Shown here: one piece after another, positions 51,396-57,787 of the stretch
Layout of the letters: every line of letters begins with the position of its first letter
How positions within the stretch are numbered: the first letter of the stretch is position 1
DNA from: Candidatus Bathyarchaeota archaeon
Lineage (GTDB): Archaea > Thermoproteota > Bathyarchaeia > Bathyarchaeales > Bathycorpusculaceae
DNA: 64,000 nucleotides
Reading direction: 5' to 3'
NCBI GenBank assembly: GCA_026014735.1
Contig: JAOZHT010000002.1
Coordinates: forward strand, 1 to 64,000
Notes under the pieces: model-generated
What the model was told of the DNA's origin: nothing
Seen by the model: only the letters and a program-made list of their open reading frames with translations
The model's database searches: none
Translations under genes and position numbers: made by a program

Positions 51396-52145
51396 TCACT
51401 CTTTTAATAGATTAGAATTGACGAAATATTCGTCACATGCCCTGTAGGCTTCATGGGTTCCTATATCCCATAAAGGATCGCTTAACATGTAACCGTAAAC
51501 TGGCTCCTTTCGGCAGAGCCATTCAACAAACCGTCCCGGCTGATCCGCCGGCAGCTTGGATGCCAAGTACGTTTTTAGCTGGCGATTTATGCCTTTTTTG
51601 AAGAGGTACACTGCACCGCAGACCATTTTTGTTTTAGGCTCGGCGGGTTTCTCGGTGAACTCTATGATTTTTCCATCTTGCGCCGCTTTTACGGTTGCGC
51701 ATCGTTTGGCGTCTTGGAGACTGGCGACTTCGTAGAGGGCAACGGTGGACTCGTTTTTTGCTCTGAAGGTTTCAAGCATGGTTGCGAGGTTATCGTTGAA
51801 CATGCCGTCGCCTGCTATGACCAGCACGTCCTCGTCGGGCAGCTTCTCAACGATATCTGCCATGGCTTTTATGGCGCCGGGCTTATCGTTTTCGCAGGAG
51901 GAAACATCCGGGAAGAACTCGACGTTTCGGTAGCTTCTAGCGGCTAGCCATCCTTCGAATTGGGGCTGGAAAAGCATGTTGGTGGAGAGGATGATACGGC
52001 TGGGCGGCGGATTGAGCGCCTGAAGTTTCTCCACGATGTAGTCGAGTATGGGTTTACCGGCTATGGGCAGCAGCGCTTTAGGTGTGCCCTGTGTGAGGGG
52101 CCAGAGGCGTTTTGCGTATCCGCCGGCGAGGATTATTGCGTACAC
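51396..52145 (-). CDS. Sugar-phosphate nucleotidyltransferase, HddC-like
   Basis: 249 aa, starting at GTG 52145 directly after the stop of the transaldolase gene. Nucleotidyltransferase signature AIILAGGYAKRLWPLTQGTPKALLPIAGKPILDYIVEKL, metal-binding VIAGDGMFND, and EFTEKPAEP. It joins a sugar-1-phosphate with an NTP. In this gene order (hddA-gmhA-gmhB-...-hddC) the natural substrate is D-glycero-alpha-D-manno-heptose-1-phosphate, giving GDP- or ADP-heptose, but the motif also fits glucose-1-phosphate thymidylyltransferase. Nucleotide specificity not resolved. Confidence 0.85.
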   Translation of the reverse strand: MYAIILAGGYAKRLWPLTQGTPKALLPIAGKPILDYIVEKLQALNPPPSRIILSTNMLFQPQFEGWLAARSYRNVEFFPDVSSCENDKPGAIKAMADIVEKLPDEDVLVIAGDGMFNDNLATMLETFRAKNESTVALYEVASLQDAKRCATVKAAQDGKIIEFTEKPAEPKTKMVCGAVYLFKKGINRQLKTYLASKLPADQPGRFVEWLCRKEPVYGYMLSDPLWDIGTHEAYRACDEYFVNSNLLKE

Positions 52146-52841
52146 TTATGCGATCACTAACTGGATTTTTTGGGCTTCGGTTTTCTTGAATTCAAGCCAG
52201 GCTTGGTCGAATTCTTTGATGGTGTCTTCGGTTTTCTGGTGGAACGGCATCTGCGCCAGCACTTTTGGGGTGATAGTTATGATGTGTGCTCCTGCAGCTG
52301 CCGCCTGGGCGACATCGTCGGGGCTTCGTATGCTTCCCACGATGATTTTGGTTGACAGATTGCTTTCTTCTAGGATGCGTTTGCTGTCCTGAATAACTTT
52401 AACGGGGTCGCTGCCTGCGTCTCGGACTCGGCAGAAAAATATGCTTGCGTAGGTTGCGCCGCTTAGAGCCGCCAGCAATACTTGGTTTGTTGTCATGAGG
52501 CAGGTGACGTTGGTTTTTATGTTTTCTTTATGGAGTTTGCTGGCTAAGACGAGTCCGCGTCCGTTTCCAAACATGGGGATTTTTATGACGATGTTTTTGG
52601 GGTTCCAGCTTGCGTATTCTTTTGCTTCCGCGACCAGCGCTTCGTCGGATTCGCCTGTTTTGGTGACTTCTATGCTTACTGGCGCATCGATGTTGGCGAG
52701 GATTTCTTGGACGCGATCTTGGAAGTTTATTCCCCTCTCGCAGGAGAAGATTTTCTGGTTGGTTGTTACCCCAGAAATCACTCCCCAGGAAAGGAGATCT
52801 TTTATTTCTTTTATGCTTGCTGTATCAAGGAATATTTCCAT
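52146..52841 (-). CDS. Transaldolase / fructose-6-phosphate aldolase-like enzyme
   Basis: 231 aa. MEIFLDTASIKEIKDLLSWGVISGVTTNQKIF opens the small-transaldolase barrel; the Schiff-base lysine is in VIKIPMF and NVTCLMTTNQVLLAALSGATYASIFFCRVRDAG follows. The usual NPxL/TTNP is TTNQ, and phosphate-binding parts look intact. It would move a three-carbon dihydroxyacetone unit, making or using sedoheptulose-7-phosphate. It starts inside the end of gmhB (31-base overlap) and abuts the nucleotidyltransferase gene, so it looks dedicated to heptose supply. Confidence 0.88.
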   Translation of the reverse strand: MEIFLDTASIKEIKDLLSWGVISGVTTNQKIFSCERGINFQDRVQEILANIDAPVSIEVTKTGESDEALVAEAKEYASWNPKNIVIKIPMFGNGRGLVLASKLHKENIKTNVTCLMTTNQVLLAALSGATYASIFFCRVRDAGSDPVKVIQDSKRILEESNLSTKIIVGSIRSPDDVAQAAAAGAHIITITPKVLAQMPFHQKTEDTIKEFDQAWLEFKKTEAQKIQLVIA

Positions 52842-53434
52842 TTTTCTTCCGCTCCTTTTTCTATAATTTTAGATGCTTCTAAGAGGTTCTTAGCTATGTA
52901 ATGCGGTTTAACTGCGAGGCGCTCCATCTCCCGGCAGAGGTCGCATTTGCGTTCCCCCAGCAGGATTGATCTGCATCCTGCGGAGTTGCCTGCCGCTACG
53001 TCGGTTAATCCGTCCCCGATCATGTAGCATTTACTGAGGTCTAAGCCCAAGTCTGCCTTCGCCTGCAGGATTAAGCCTGGACGCGGTTTTCTGCAGTCAC
53101 AAATAACCTTGTACTTGCGCCGTGTAGCGTTGGGATGGTGGAAGCAGTAGTATTCTGCGTCGATGTATGCGCCGCTTTTCTGGAGTAGGTTGCGCATTTT
53201 TTGGCGGATAGACTCAAAGAGGTCAGGGGACATTTTTCCTTTAGCTATGGCGGGTTGATTGGAGACGATGATGACTTTCAAGCCTAATTTGTTGAAGGCT
53301 TTGATTGCTTCGGCGGCGCCGGGTATTAGCTTGAACTGTGAGGGGTTTAGAGGCGAATCTATTAGGCCCAATTCGGGGAAGAAGACGACTTCATTTATGA
53401 CGCCGTCGCGGTCAAGCAAAACTGCGTCGGTCAT
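52811..53434 (-). CDS. gmhB: D-glycero-D-manno-heptose 1,7-bisphosphate phosphatase
   Basis: 207 aa from ATG 53434, which overlaps the stop of the 47-aa gene (ATGA); the ATG at 53440 is the alternative. HAD hydrolase: catalytic AVLLDRDGVINE, then VIIVSNQPAIAKG, a zinc site with YCFHHP and CDCRKPRPG (the Cys-x-His and Cys-x-Cys typical of GmhB), and MIGDGLTDVAAG. It removes the C7 phosphate from heptose-1,7-bisphosphate. Together with hddA and gmhA it gives heptose-1-phosphate. Confidence 0.93.
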   Translation of the reverse strand: MTDAVLLDRDGVINEVVFFPELGLIDSPLNPSQFKLIPGAAEAIKAFNKLGLKVIIVSNQPAIAKGKMSPDLFESIRQKMRNLLQKSGAYIDAEYYCFHHPNATRRKYKVICDCRKPRPGLILQAKADLGLDLSKCYMIGDGLTDVAAGNSAGCRSILLGERKCDLCREMERLAVKPHYIAKNLLEASKIIEKGAEEKWKYSLIQQA

Positions 53435-53574
53435 TCGCATTCTGACTCCATAACTTCGCAGGCTTCGAAAACTGTGGCTTGCAGGCCGGACTTTTGAAGA
53501 TAATCCTTTAAGCGCCTACGGATTTTGCAGGCGTCTTTGTCGGTGCTATCTATCCAGACGATAGTGCGTTTCAT
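53431..53574 (-). CDS. 47-aa protein between gmhA and gmhB, APS-kinase-like without P-loop
   Basis: ATG 53574 overlaps the gmhA stop (ATGA) and its TGA overlaps the gmhB start (ATGA), so it is coupled on both sides and is very likely translated. The order TIVWI...RRRLKDYLQKSGLQATVFEACEV parallels the N-terminus of adenylylsulfate kinases (TIWxTG, P-loop, LxxxLxxxGxxVxVLDGDxV), but the GxxGxGK(S/T) P-loop is replaced by DSTDKDACK, so ATP binding by that motif is lost. Function unknown; it could be a structural or regulatory partner. The resemblance is by eye. Confidence 0.7.
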   Translation of the reverse strand: MKRTIVWIDSTDKDACKIRRRLKDYLQKSGLQATVFEACEVMESECE

Positions 53575-54179
53575 GTTGAGCCGGTTTCGGTTATGGCTTG
53601 ACGTAGGGCAGCACAGAGCAGGTGGGTTAACACAACGTGGAAGCCTTCAACTTGGGGCGTCGAGTTTACGGGGGCAACTATGCAGGCGTCAGCCATCTGT
53701 TTTAGGGCGCCGCCGTCAAAACCCGCAAGCCCAATGACTTTTCCGCCGTTGTTCTGCACGTATTCGGCTGCTTTTAGAATGTTTTGCGACCAGATTCCCG
53801 CTTTGTCTGCTCCTGAGCCGCCGTGTACGCTGATGACTACCAATAGGTCGCCGGAGTTCATTATATTTCTAAGCTGCTCATAGTACACGTTTTCCCAGCC
53901 TAAATCGTTGGTTAACGCCGATACTAGGGGGATATTGTCGTTTAGGCAGATTGCTTTAAAGCGTTGTTTGTCTTCGACTGCGGTGAATTTGGCTAAGTCA
54001 CATGTAAAGTGGGTGGCTGTTGAGGCTGATCCGCCGTTGCCTGCGACGAAGACTTGTTTGCCGTCTTTCCAGGCGTTGTAGAGCAGGGTTAGGGCGAGGT
54101 TGATGTCTTCTTGGCGAATATTTGTTGCAGCCGTTTTCAGCTCGATAAGGTAATCTTTGATGAATTTCTCGGTCTTCAT
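53571..54179 (-). CDS. gmhA: Sedoheptulose-7-phosphate isomerase (SIS domain)
   Basis: 202 aa. SIS fold with VFVAGNGGSASTATHFTCDLAKF (phosphate binding), LNDNIPLVSALTNDLGWENVYYEQL, LVVISVHGGSGADKAG (usual ISTSGNS replaced by ISVHGGSG) and C-terminal TPQVEGFHVVLTHLLCAAL with the catalytic Glu and His. It converts sedoheptulose-7-phosphate into D-glycero-D-manno-heptose-7-phosphate. Nine bases after hddA. Confidence 0.93.
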   Translation of the reverse strand: MKTEKFIKDYLIELKTAATNIRQEDINLALTLLYNAWKDGKQVFVAGNGGSASTATHFTCDLAKFTAVEDKQRFKAICLNDNIPLVSALTNDLGWENVYYEQLRNIMNSGDLLVVISVHGGSGADKAGIWSQNILKAAEYVQNNGGKVIGLAGFDGGALKQMADACIVAPVNSTPQVEGFHVVLTHLLCAALRQAITETGST

Positions 54180-54188
54180 GGTTTTCCC

Positions 54189-55169
54189 TTAGAGGTTCAG
54201 TGAGATTTTGGAGCCGTCGGCTTCGAAGTCAAACGCGATTTCGCGCAGGCCTTCTTTTGCCATGGCTTTTCTCAGGCTGTCGCGTCCGTTTTCGCAATAG
54301 AACATTAAGAAGCCGCCTCCGCCTGCCCCCATGAGTTTGCCGCCTAAAGCGCCGTTTTTGAGGCCAAGCTCATACCATTTATCGATTAATCCTGTTGAGA
54401 TGACTGGGGAAGTTCGTTTTTTTACCAGCCAATGCTCATGCTGCAGTCGCCCGAACTGGTTGATGTCGCCGTTTTCAAGGGCATGCTTGACCTTGTAGCC
54501 GATTGCCTTTACTTCATGCATGGCGTCAAGTTGTGTTCCTTGCTCTTTCACTGCATTGCCCTGGTCTTTTAGGACCGATGATGAACTGCGTTTTATTCCT
54601 GTGTAGAAGAAGACGAGGTTGTTTTCGAGTTCCCGCATGGCTTCATCGGAGATTTTCAGTGAGGAAACGTTGACTTTTCCGTCTTTTGCTATGTCGAGGC
54701 ATACTAAGCCGCCGTATGCGGCAATGAAGGTGTCCTGGTAGCCGCATGGTTCTTTGAGGATATCCATTTGTAGGCGGCAGGCTTCCTCGGCGAGTACTTG
54801 CCGGGAGAGATGCTCGTCTTTGTACATGTGGAGTGCATGCAGCAGCCCCACGGTGAAGCTGCTGGAGGAGCCCAGGCCTGTTTCAGCGGGGACTTCGGCT
54901 ATGGATATGATTTCGAGGTTGCTGCGTAAATCCAGCATTTCCAGGGCTTCCCGGATTACAGGATGCTTGATGCTGCCGATGGGCTCCACGATTTCCGTTA
55001 TGGAGTAGCTGACCCTAACGGGCTCTTCGAAGCGGCGGTTTATGACTAGGTAGATGTATTTGTCGATGGCTGAGGTGACCACGAAGCCGCCGTGTTGGCT
55101 GCAGTAGGCAGGCAGGTCTGTGCCGCCACCGCCTAAGGTTAAGCGCAGGGGGGTTTTGCTAACGATCAA
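54189..55169 (-). CDS. hddA: D-glycero-alpha-D-manno-heptose-7-phosphate kinase (GHMP family)
   Basis: 326 aa. N-terminal SKTPLRLTLGGGGTDLPAYCSQHGG is the hallmark of HddA-type kinases, followed by ATP-binding VPAETGLGSSSSFTVGLLHAL, GYQDTFIAAYGG and C-terminal GALGGKLMGAGGGGFLMFYC. It phosphorylates heptose-7-phosphate at C1. First gene of the minus-strand cluster, whose promoter should lie in the ~160-base gap to the right (55170-55332). Confidence 0.93.
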   Translation of the reverse strand: MIVSKTPLRLTLGGGGTDLPAYCSQHGGFVVTSAIDKYIYLVINRRFEEPVRVSYSITEIVEPIGSIKHPVIREALEMLDLRSNLEIISIAEVPAETGLGSSSSFTVGLLHALHMYKDEHLSRQVLAEEACRLQMDILKEPCGYQDTFIAAYGGLVCLDIAKDGKVNVSSLKISDEAMRELENNLVFFYTGIKRSSSSVLKDQGNAVKEQGTQLDAMHEVKAIGYKVKHALENGDINQFGRLQHEHWLVKKRTSPVISTGLIDKWYELGLKNGALGGKLMGAGGGGFLMFYCENGRDSLRKAMAKEGLREIAFDFEADGSKISLNL

Positions 55170-55332: not shown

Positions 55333-55800
55333 TTACTTATTTGCCACTTTGAATATGGATAGATTATTCATCTCGATAACGGTGAGGTACCGTATGAAGG
55401 CAACATCGGTTGCCCATTTAGCAGCGTTTTTGTTTCCCCATCCTGAGGCTACAGCACTTACACGTTGTGCTAGAGGGCGCCCGTAGGTTTGCATGCCGTA
55501 GAATAACTGCCCCATTAACCCTTGGAGGCCCCCTATTGCCTTCATTAGTTTTTCAGCCAGGGGCGTAAGGATCTTTAGCAGCAGAGAGCTGTGTACTCTG
55601 TCAACGGTTTGGATGACCGCGTCGATGAATCGTCGTTTATCAAGCGGCAGAACGCGGAACCATGAATTGTTAGCTCGGAGAGCTTTCTGCTTGAGGGTGG
55701 TTAAGAATTTTCTTCCGCCTTTTTTGATGAGTGCAGCCGTATCTTGCTCAATTTCAGGTGTGCTGCTCTTTTTGTCTATAGTATTCGTGAGCACGCGCAT
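55333..55800 (-). CDS. Hypothetical protein, helical
   Basis: 155 aa, basic (Lys/Arg-rich) and mainly helical, with no recognised domain. A moderately hydrophobic stretch at ~85-110 (LLKILTPLAEKLMKAIGGLQGLMGQLFYG) could be amphipathic. Three bases after the cysteine-rich gene, so co-transcribed with it. It lies between the heptose genes and the CorA-like gene. No function can be assigned. Confidence 0.6.
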   Translation of the reverse strand: MRVLTNTIDKKSSTPEIEQDTAALIKKGGRKFLTTLKQKALRANNSWFRVLPLDKRRFIDAVIQTVDRVHSSLLLKILTPLAEKLMKAIGGLQGLMGQLFYGMQTYGRPLAQRVSAVASGWGNKNAAKWATDVAFIRYLTVIEMNNLSIFKVANK

Positions 55801-55803
55801 TAG

Positions 55804-56190
55804 TTAAACCTCGTTAAGCATTGTTTGGGGTTTGCTGTCTTGTCTACCGGTGGCCTTGCTTTTTGGCGGGGTTTTTTGGTTGATTAGCAGTTGATCAAGT
55901 ATTGCAGCACATATCGTTAAGCAGTTTTCACATAAGGTGAAACCATACTTTAGGCAAAGGACTTCTTTGGTTGCTTTGCAGATGTCGCATTCTCCGATTT
56001 TCGTTCCGGCGTAGAGTGGACTTCGGGCGTTGGATGGTTTAGGTTGATAGCTCGGGCAGGCTATGTGTTGGTCGGGGTAATCGCAGGCGTTATTATTTTT
56101 GAGACATCGAAAGGTGTGTTTTTTCTGAAAAACACAGTGTCTATTTGTGGTTTCGTTTTGATGCTGTTGTTTTGAGTCCTGCTGTACCAT
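55804..56190 (-). CDS. Cysteine-rich, probably zinc-binding protein
   Basis: 128 aa. Two cysteine/histidine modules: residues ~19-47 (CVFQKKHTFRC, ACDYPDQHIACP) and ~68-94 (CDICKATKEVLC, TLCENCLTIC). The spacing CxxC...CxxC suits one or two zinc knuckles. GAGG-rich ribosome-binding region lies ~10 bases before ATG 56190. Likely a small regulator or protein-interaction module operating with the following 155-aa gene. No known family recognised. Confidence 0.6.
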   Translation of the reverse strand: MVQQDSKQQHQNETTNRHCVFQKKHTFRCLKNNNACDYPDQHIACPSYQPKPSNARSPLYAGTKIGECDICKATKEVLCLKYGFTLCENCLTICAAILDQLLINQKTPPKSKATGRQDSKPQTMLNEV

Positions 56191-56308: not shown

Positions 56309-57787
56309 CTAAGTTTTAAGCCAACCCAACTTAACAAAACTGTAAGCCGCAAAAGCCATACAAATCGCGATAACAAAGCTTACCTGCCAAAGAAAAGCGC
56401 CATAAGGCACATCCAGCAGGTTCGCGCCGATAACGCCGCTGACAGCCGAGGGGATCACCGAAATGGAGGTCACAACCGCGAGGATTTTAAGAATACGGTT
56501 AGTCTCAAATGACGTTTGGTTAATGTAGAGGTCGATGATGGAGCGTAAATTCTCGATTAAATCATGCGATATCTCGTTAAGGTAGGCGGCGCTGTCCTGC
56601 AGCACATGAAACGCCTCTTCCCCGTCCTCATCGAAGCCGGCTAGAGGAACCTTACGGGATATGATGACGCTTAGCATATCCTTAAAATGCAGCAAATTAG
56701 ACACCACCCGAGAGACCTCTTTGTCAAGTTGGTAGATGCGTTCGAGGAAGTCCTTGGGAAGTTTAGAGCGGGGGGTAGCGCTGATTTTGAGTAATTCAAT
56801 TTCGATTTCTGAGAGCACCGAGCGGTAACCGCTTAGCATGTAATCAAGGAGGCTATAGAGTACGGGAACCGCAAAAGCGTCGATGTCTCGTCGTTGCTTA
56901 AGCGAGGGCAGGATGTTTTCAAGGATAGCCGTGCTGTGCCGAGATACGGTGATGACTTTGGTGCCGTTACATATGGCAATTAAACCCAAACGGGAAATAA
57001 CAAAGTCTTTGCCTGCATGCTCAGGATACTGGATTTTACCCCGCTGCAGAAAAATAAAGGAAGATTTCGCCACGTAATCGATGTGCGGAAAAATGTCGTC
57101 AACCAAGTTGCTTTTAAAATGCAGCTCAGAGACTCCTAGCACTCGACTGAGTTCCAGGAAGCCTTCGTCGGAAACGTGCTGTAGGTCAATCCATTCCTCG
57201 CATGTCGAGTCTGCTAAATGCTCTCTAAACTCGCTCCACGAGAGGGTCTTAGGCTCCAACTCAGAGTCTACTTGGCGGATGAGGGTTTCAGGAAACATTT
57301 CTTTAGATTCTAACGCGATGCTGCCTCCTGCCCGTCTTCCCGCAACTGCTCTGCCGCCCACCGCTATAGCTCGGGGCAGCCTAAGCAGCCGCAACAGAAG
57401 CGAGGGGGAACCGGTTAGGGTGAGTTGGAGCAGGGGCAGGTACTGCACGAAGGGCAAAACAATAATGAGCAAGTCCACTATGTGCCAGGATGATTTGAAG
57501 TGTCTCCAGCGGTCCTCTGCCACATAAAGCTTGGTTAGGTACTCGGCGACAAAGAGCAGGACAATTATCCAGTCGCAGATTTCAAGAAAAACCAGCACTG
57601 AATCGTTGAGCTGGAAGAATATAGGAACCAAAAGCATGGGCACGATAATTAAGGATAAGAAAATCATGAGGCGATCTGAAAAAACCGCGTCCACCATCTC
57701 TCGAAGGTCAGCGCGGGGGTCATTTTGAGGCGCAAAGAGCGAACGCGGCAAGGTTTCGCTTGCAGATTGATTGCGTTGGTTTGGCAT
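56309..57787 (-). CDS. CorA-like cation transporter with N-terminal voltage-sensor-like domain
   Basis: 492 aa. Residues ~36-155 form four membrane segments with voltage-sensor character: S2 FVAEYLTKLYVAEDRW (E82, K86, D92), S3 HIVDLLIIVLP (D105) and S4 SLLLRLLRLPRA (R133, R136, R139 every third residue). There is no pore helix or GYG filter. Residues ~200-400 match the CorA cytoplasmic funnel, followed by two C-terminal membrane segments; the usual GMN after TM1 is GAN (454-456). It probably conducts Mg2+ or a similar ion, possibly gated by voltage. Convergent to nothing; single gene. Confidence 0.85.
   Translation of the reverse strand: MPNQRNQSASETLPRSLFAPQNDPRADLREMVDAVFSDRLMIFLSLIIVPMLLVPIFFQLNDSVLVFLEICDWIIVLLFVAEYLTKLYVAEDRWRHFKSSWHIVDLLIIVLPFVQYLPLLQLTLTGSPSLLLRLLRLPRAIAVGGRAVAGRRAGGSIALESKEMFPETLIRQVDSELEPKTLSWSEFREHLADSTCEEWIDLQHVSDEGFLELSRVLGVSELHFKSNLVDDIFPHIDYVAKSSFIFLQRGKIQYPEHAGKDFVISRLGLIAICNGTKVITVSRHSTAILENILPSLKQRRDIDAFAVPVLYSLLDYMLSGYRSVLSEIEIELLKISATPRSKLPKDFLERIYQLDKEVSRVVSNLLHFKDMLSVIISRKVPLAGFDEDGEEAFHVLQDSAAYLNEISHDLIENLRSIIDLYINQTSFETNRILKILAVVTSISVIPSAVSGVIGANLLDVPYGAFLWQVSFVIAICMAFAAYSFVKLGWLKT

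Follow-up and report, generated by a model that had tools for sequence, protein, structure and literature searches.

Archaeal proteins joining a voltage-sensor domain to a CorA-type channel unit in a single chain

Introduction

Known roles of voltage-sensor domains (VSDs) are the driving of P-loop pores, of a phosphatase or of an exchanger, and the conduction of ions by the VSD itself, and VSD-bearing proteins without a pore of their own include Ci-VSP, Hv1, TMEM266 and the sperm Na+/H+ exchanger sNHE. CorA proteins are known for their gating by intracellular Mg2+. A gene from a Candidatus Bathyarchaeota archaeon raises the question of whether these two kinds of control have been brought together in one protein. 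The gene is located at positions 56309-57787 of the stretch of 64,000 nucleotides that was analysed (hereafter the window), and an original prediction, made by a model from the DNA letters and their translated reading frames, proposed that its product carries S1-S4-like helices ahead of a CorA channel. Here we ask whether the fusion is genuine, whether its N-terminal part is a true VSD, and what such a protein might do.

Results

One reading frame encodes a voltage-sensor domain and a CorA unit

The fusion gene (56309..57787) is located on the minus strand, which the original prediction had left unspecified. It is a single open reading frame that starts with ATG, runs uninterrupted from 57787 to 56309 and encodes 492 amino acids; an open frame was looked for on the plus strand of the same interval and none was found. 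Within residues 36-155, the segment predicted to resemble S1-S4, Pfam Ion_trans (PF00520) matches residues 41-140 with 35.9 bits (E 5.9e-9, cut-off 25). Among solved structures, Nav1.8 (3e-18) and Cav3.2 (5e-13) are matched by a profile built from the VSD only; these values are sums over the channel repeats, of which the single ones listed score ~9-27 bits. The Ion_trans match covers positions 11-108 of the 241 in the profile, that is S1-S4 alone, and contains no trace of an S5-P-S6 pore domain, consistent with the predicted lack of a pore in this part of the protein; where a pore domain would stand, residues 153-425 form a linker and the CorA cytosolic domain.

The rest of the protein is CorA, as had been proposed: PF01544 matches residues 199-484 with 105.7 bits (E 3.6e-30, cut-off 27) over nearly the whole model (profile 6-290 of 292). 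The protein scores 76.5 bits against TIGR00383, the Mg/Co transporter CorA equivalog, below its cut-off of 200.75 bits. Among solved structures, the best relatives of the C-terminal part are M. jannaschii CorA and those of the N-terminal part are Cav and Nav voltage sensors. A weak, below cut-off match of TetR_C_10 to residues 347-425 was rejected as helix noise. A search for the fusion in other archaea, as the original prediction had suggested, yielded nine further full-length proteins with the VSD-CorA architecture, and both Pfam domains are matched in all ten proteins.

In each chain, a four-helix VSD that lacks a pore domain thus precedes a complete CorA unit, all encoded on the minus strand. 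In the alignment of the ten proteins, a conserved cytosolic N-terminal segment (residues 14-37, 57677..57748), with invariant P14, D23, P24, R25 and R29, precedes the VSD (S1-S4, residues 38-152, 57332..57676). A linker (residues 153-196, 57200..57331), partly disordered in the structure model, leads to the CorA part (residues 197-492, 56312..57199), which comprises the cytosolic funnel domain, a long stalk helix and two membrane helices. By alignment to CorA, TM1 (residues 430-452, 56432..56500) would line the pore, and GAN (residues 454-456, 56420..56428) occupies the position of the GMN motif; TM2 (residues 466-486, 56330..56392) was placed by alignment and model. These assignments support the predicted six membrane passes per subunit, and the topology is consistent, as both ends of the VSD lie on the cytosolic side and the CorA domain starts there too.

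An AlphaFold2 monomer model was generated from a 43-row alignment of fusions, VSDs and CorA proteins from the same phylum and had a mean pLDDT of 87.3; a poor model from an earlier 7-row alignment (pLDDT 58.8) was set aside uninterpreted. The N-terminal helices span residues 38-57, 62-89, 100-114/117-120, 128-134 and 137-155, with S4 broken near P138. The model has helices for S1-S4 and gave no sign that the first four helices fail to form a voltage-sensor fold, which the original prediction had named as grounds for dropping the idea. The pLDDT is ~90 in S1-S3, 70 to 82-88 from the S3-S4 loop through S4 and ~50 near residues 151-160. The CorA fold is present, with a stalk/TM1 helix at 387-454 and TM2 at 466-486, and Foldseek matched the model to the CorA structures of T. 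maritima and M. jannaschii with E-values down to 5e-14. The Foldseek matches listed are CorA chains only, while the VSD helices of the model stand at the expected places with good pLDDT, and the VSD fold is assigned from homology and model confidence.

Charge-transfer residues of the voltage sensor are conserved

Invariant in all ten VSDs are D72, F79, E82 and K86 in S2 (residues 62-89, 57521..57604), W101, H102 and D105 in the S3 region (residues 100-120, 57428..57490), and R133, P138, R139 and R146 in S4 and its cytosolic end (residues 128-152, 57332..57406), which also includes R151 and R152. The core residues hold across proteins that are as little as 47-48% identical. F79, E82 and D105 match the charge-transfer centre known from voltage sensors, in which an aromatic residue and an acid in S2 are joined by an acid in S3. 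The arginines predicted to follow at three-residue steps, R133, R136 and R139, align with R2, R3 and R4 of voltage-gated channels from the same archaeal phylum; R136 is kept in nine of the ten fusions and is T in one paralog. The R1 position is occupied by L130, and the outer gating charge is therefore absent. Two of the three proposed counter-charges, E82 and D105, stand; D92 is present in the window protein but is D, N or S across the family and was rejected, and the invariant D72 had been overlooked.

Arginine codons at 133, 136, 139 and 146 vary synonymously between species (AGR versus CGN) with Arg retained, and pN is ~0.2 versus a pS of 0.7-0.84 within the genus. Identity across the fusions is 50-74% in the VSD versus 45-70% in the cytosolic part of CorA, which puts the VSD level with the latter or above it, and is lowest, at 21-48%, in the S4-CorA linker. 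Homology and the conserved charge-transfer centre together support the assignment of the N-terminal part as a true VSD.

The voltage-sensor-like domains of many TRP channels show no response to voltage in the physiological range, and the chief rival explanation is that the VSD of the fusion is likewise voltage-insensitive in that range and structural, anchoring or stabilizing the pentamer or binding a lipid or partner. The small number of gating charges, the loss of R1, P138 within S4, and the disordered and variable linker are all in keeping with such a role. However, strict conservation of exactly F79, E82, D105, R133 and R139 exceeds what an anchor would need, and we consider a purely structural VSD unlikely, though with a substantial share of the probability.

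The G-x-N loop of the CorA part

The original prediction had singled out GAN in place of GMN. G454 and N456 are located as predicted and are invariant in the ten fusions, with N430, P446 and much of TM1 conserved alongside them. The middle residue reads A, T, A, M, M, M, Q, M, T and T across the ten, so that six of them, the window protein among them, have GAN, GTN or GQN, and GAN was rejected as a distinctive feature. Stand-alone archaeal CorA proteins in the comparison set mostly have GTN. Permeation through CorA/Mrs2 channels has been reported to require the GMN motif (PMC11919701). GAN is probably a derived, local variant, because GMN is found in the paralog, in the copies from Nitrososphaerales MAGs and in the debris of the gene that a sister species retains.

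An improbable alternative is that the fusion, though CorA-like, handles a different cation or has a different role, whether or not its VSD senses voltage. Its distance from the CorA equivalog model, the departures from GMN and the presence of a second, stand-alone CorA in the window genome would all fit this reading. The constancy of G and N within the loop argues against it, as does the finding that GTN is common in archaeal CorA, including proteins of a family described below (f29) that reach 227 bits in Pfam CorA.

We regard it as very improbable that the VSD is itself the conduit, carrying an Hv1-like proton current or a gating-pore current, with CorA serving mainly as an assembly platform or as a divalent-ion sensor for the VSD. 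Proteins consisting of a VSD only are able to conduct, as Hv1 does and as the isolated Shaker VSD reportedly does (PMC5092046); the fusion shares with Hv1 three arginines at three-residue steps, and the variable middle residue of its loop could be read in the same sense. Conservation of G454, N456, N430, P446 and much of TM1 suggests, on the contrary, that the CorA pore is under selection.

A rare and patchily distributed lineage with a single origin

The closest fusions to the window protein come from two other species in its genus (68 and 67% identity), one of which also carries the paralog (48%). Further fusions, 55, 53 and 50% identical, are encoded by two Nitrososphaerales MAGs and by a 4.7-kb contig whose MAG bears the label Methanomethylicia, and three more from genomes of the same order as the Nitrososphaerales MAGs are 48-51% identical. 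The short Methanomethylicia contig may be misbinned, since its genome is the sole one of 23 in that order to bear the gene. The genome contig search gave nothing with a single protein as query and three fusions with an alignment as query. Only 6 of 257 genomes of the window's class were matched at all, with fusions in three of those six, and the order of the Nitrososphaerales MAGs has the fusion in 5 of 250 genomes; the fusion is thus rare and patchy. Among 61 genomes related to that of the window, Ion_trans is confined to VSD-CorA fusions. No fusion was found in viral contigs searched with protein and alignment queries, or in plasmids and phages searched by tblastn, in which the two plasmid matches were to CorA only.

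When CorA domains are placed in a tree, the ten fusions group as a single clade (support 99/98), which indicates one origin; the nearest stand-alone CorA proteins in the set are from the same class. A tree built from the VSD only is weakly supported (77/0) and does not point to a donor channel. With ten intact genes fused at the same place, and nothing found in its favour, the notion that the protein is an artefact of a frameshift (a concern raised by the original prediction), of misassembly or of chance similarity is refuted.

The fusion gene follows top6A in three species of the genus. In two further species only debris of the gene lies beside top6A: the last 45 codons in one (L104 3746-3880), and, in the other (L105 1189-1405), 55-60 N-terminal residues with a stop and the ten C-terminal ones. 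This debris indicates that the gene is old at the locus and was later lost in these species, and hence dispensable. The paralog (L011 1495-2961, G007:C2) has GMN and a threonine in place of R136, and is a natural variant in the number of gating charges.

Neighbouring genes and channel-CorA gene pairs in a separate lineage

Two small minus-strand genes, 55333-55800 and 55804-56190, are located downstream of the fusion gene; neither has a match in Pfam or NCBIfam, and the former has a similar neighbour in another genome (G011, L107 4278-4754). The minus-strand cluster at 51396-55169 resembles one for GDP-heptose synthesis, with GmhA-, HddA-, GmhB- and HddC/nucleotidyltransferase-like genes and a transaldolase/fructose-6-phosphate aldolase, all scoring below equivalog cut-offs.

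In the family f29, which belongs to the same phylum, a gene for a voltage-gated channel of 265-267 amino acids (Ion_trans, TTIGYGD filter) stands directly after a CorA gene or overlaps it by a few codons. The CorA proteins of these pairs are 540-550 amino acids long, with a GTN loop and ~200-250 extra N-terminal residues containing several membrane helices; this extension did not match the VSD profile. Pairs occur in about ten genomes (L097 227-1861 and 1834-2631; L100 2738-4384 and 1877-2680; also L074-L085). Being a separate lineage, f29 represents an independent link between the two functions, such that the phylum associates a voltage-gated channel with CorA in two ways, through adjacent genes and through gene fusion.

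Discussion

The explanation that we favour, and to which we give an even chance, is a pentameric CorA-type cation channel with voltage sensors at its periphery, one per subunit, that modulate its opening. Five chains would assemble as in CorA, TM1 lining the pore and the five VSDs standing at the rim of the membrane part. S4 would move with the membrane potential, carrying about three gating charges past the F79/E82/D105 centre, and this movement would shift the open-closed balance of the CorA funnel, adding to or replacing regulation by divalent ions inside the cell. Such control could plausibly serve to limit or time the potential-driven entry of Mg2+, or another divalent ion, as the membrane potential changes.

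Several lines of evidence count for modulation of the channel by its VSDs: both domains share one reading frame here and in all relatives, the VSD core is invariant and conserved overall, the arginines keep the R2-R4 register despite codon changes, the fusions form a single clade, Ion_trans is restricted to them among the 61 related genomes, the model has VSD helices together with a CorA fold, and channel-CorA gene pairs exist in f29. Counting against it are the variable linker, the missing R1, the break in S4 near P138, the paralog without R136, the dispensability of the gene and the unreached TIGR00383 cut-off. Coupling between S4 and CorA is its weakest point. Since the linker is the least conserved part and has a pLDDT of ~50 near residues 151-160, rigid pulling by S4 is unlikely; coupling, if real, would more likely proceed via lateral contacts in the membrane or via the conserved N-terminal segment (P14, D23-P24-R25, R29) than via a stiff S4-CorA rod.

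It is possible, though somewhat short of an even chance, that the VSD controls the CorA pore, making the protein a voltage-gated, pentameric, non-P-loop divalent-cation channel with a pore unrelated to the known tetrameric pores gated by VSDs. If so, an unrelated class of channel would join the effectors of VSDs, coupling the VSD to an unrelated channel fold, and the question of VSD modularity becomes testable in a new scaffold. CorA would gain a second, electrical control beside intracellular Mg2+, and the fusion would stand as one of the few archaeal examples of voltage-dependent regulation beyond K+/Na+-type channels. No report of a VSD-CorA protein was found in the non-subscription papers searched. 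CorA proteins go unmentioned in a review of VSDs (PMC13095418), the sole match to these letters being "corals".

Compared with the CorA/Mrs2/Alr1 proteins (PF01544; M. jannaschii 4cy4/4ev6, T. maritima 2iub), the fusion has the same cytosolic alpha/beta domain, long stalk helix and two C-terminal TM helices, and shares by sequence the G-x-N loop, N430, P461 and the terminal W489-L490. It differs in its added N-terminal four-helix VSD, in having GAN rather than GMN in the window protein, and in remaining below the TIGR00383 cut-off. With voltage-gated cation channels (PF00520; Nav1.8, Cav3.2 and archaeal channels of the same phylum) it shares S1-S4 with F79, E82, K86, W101 and D105 and arginines at R2-R4; unlike them, it is without S5-P-S6, has L130 at R1 and P138 within S4, and carries a CorA unit. 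The nearest parallels in design are Ci-VSP, Hv1, TMEM266 and sNHE, which likewise have a VSD without its own pore that is joined to, or itself acts as, a different effector (PMC10651576, PMC13095418). Those proteins are eukaryotic, and their VSDs act on a phosphatase or an exchanger or are themselves the effector, whereas in the archaeal fusion the effector would be a CorA-type channel.
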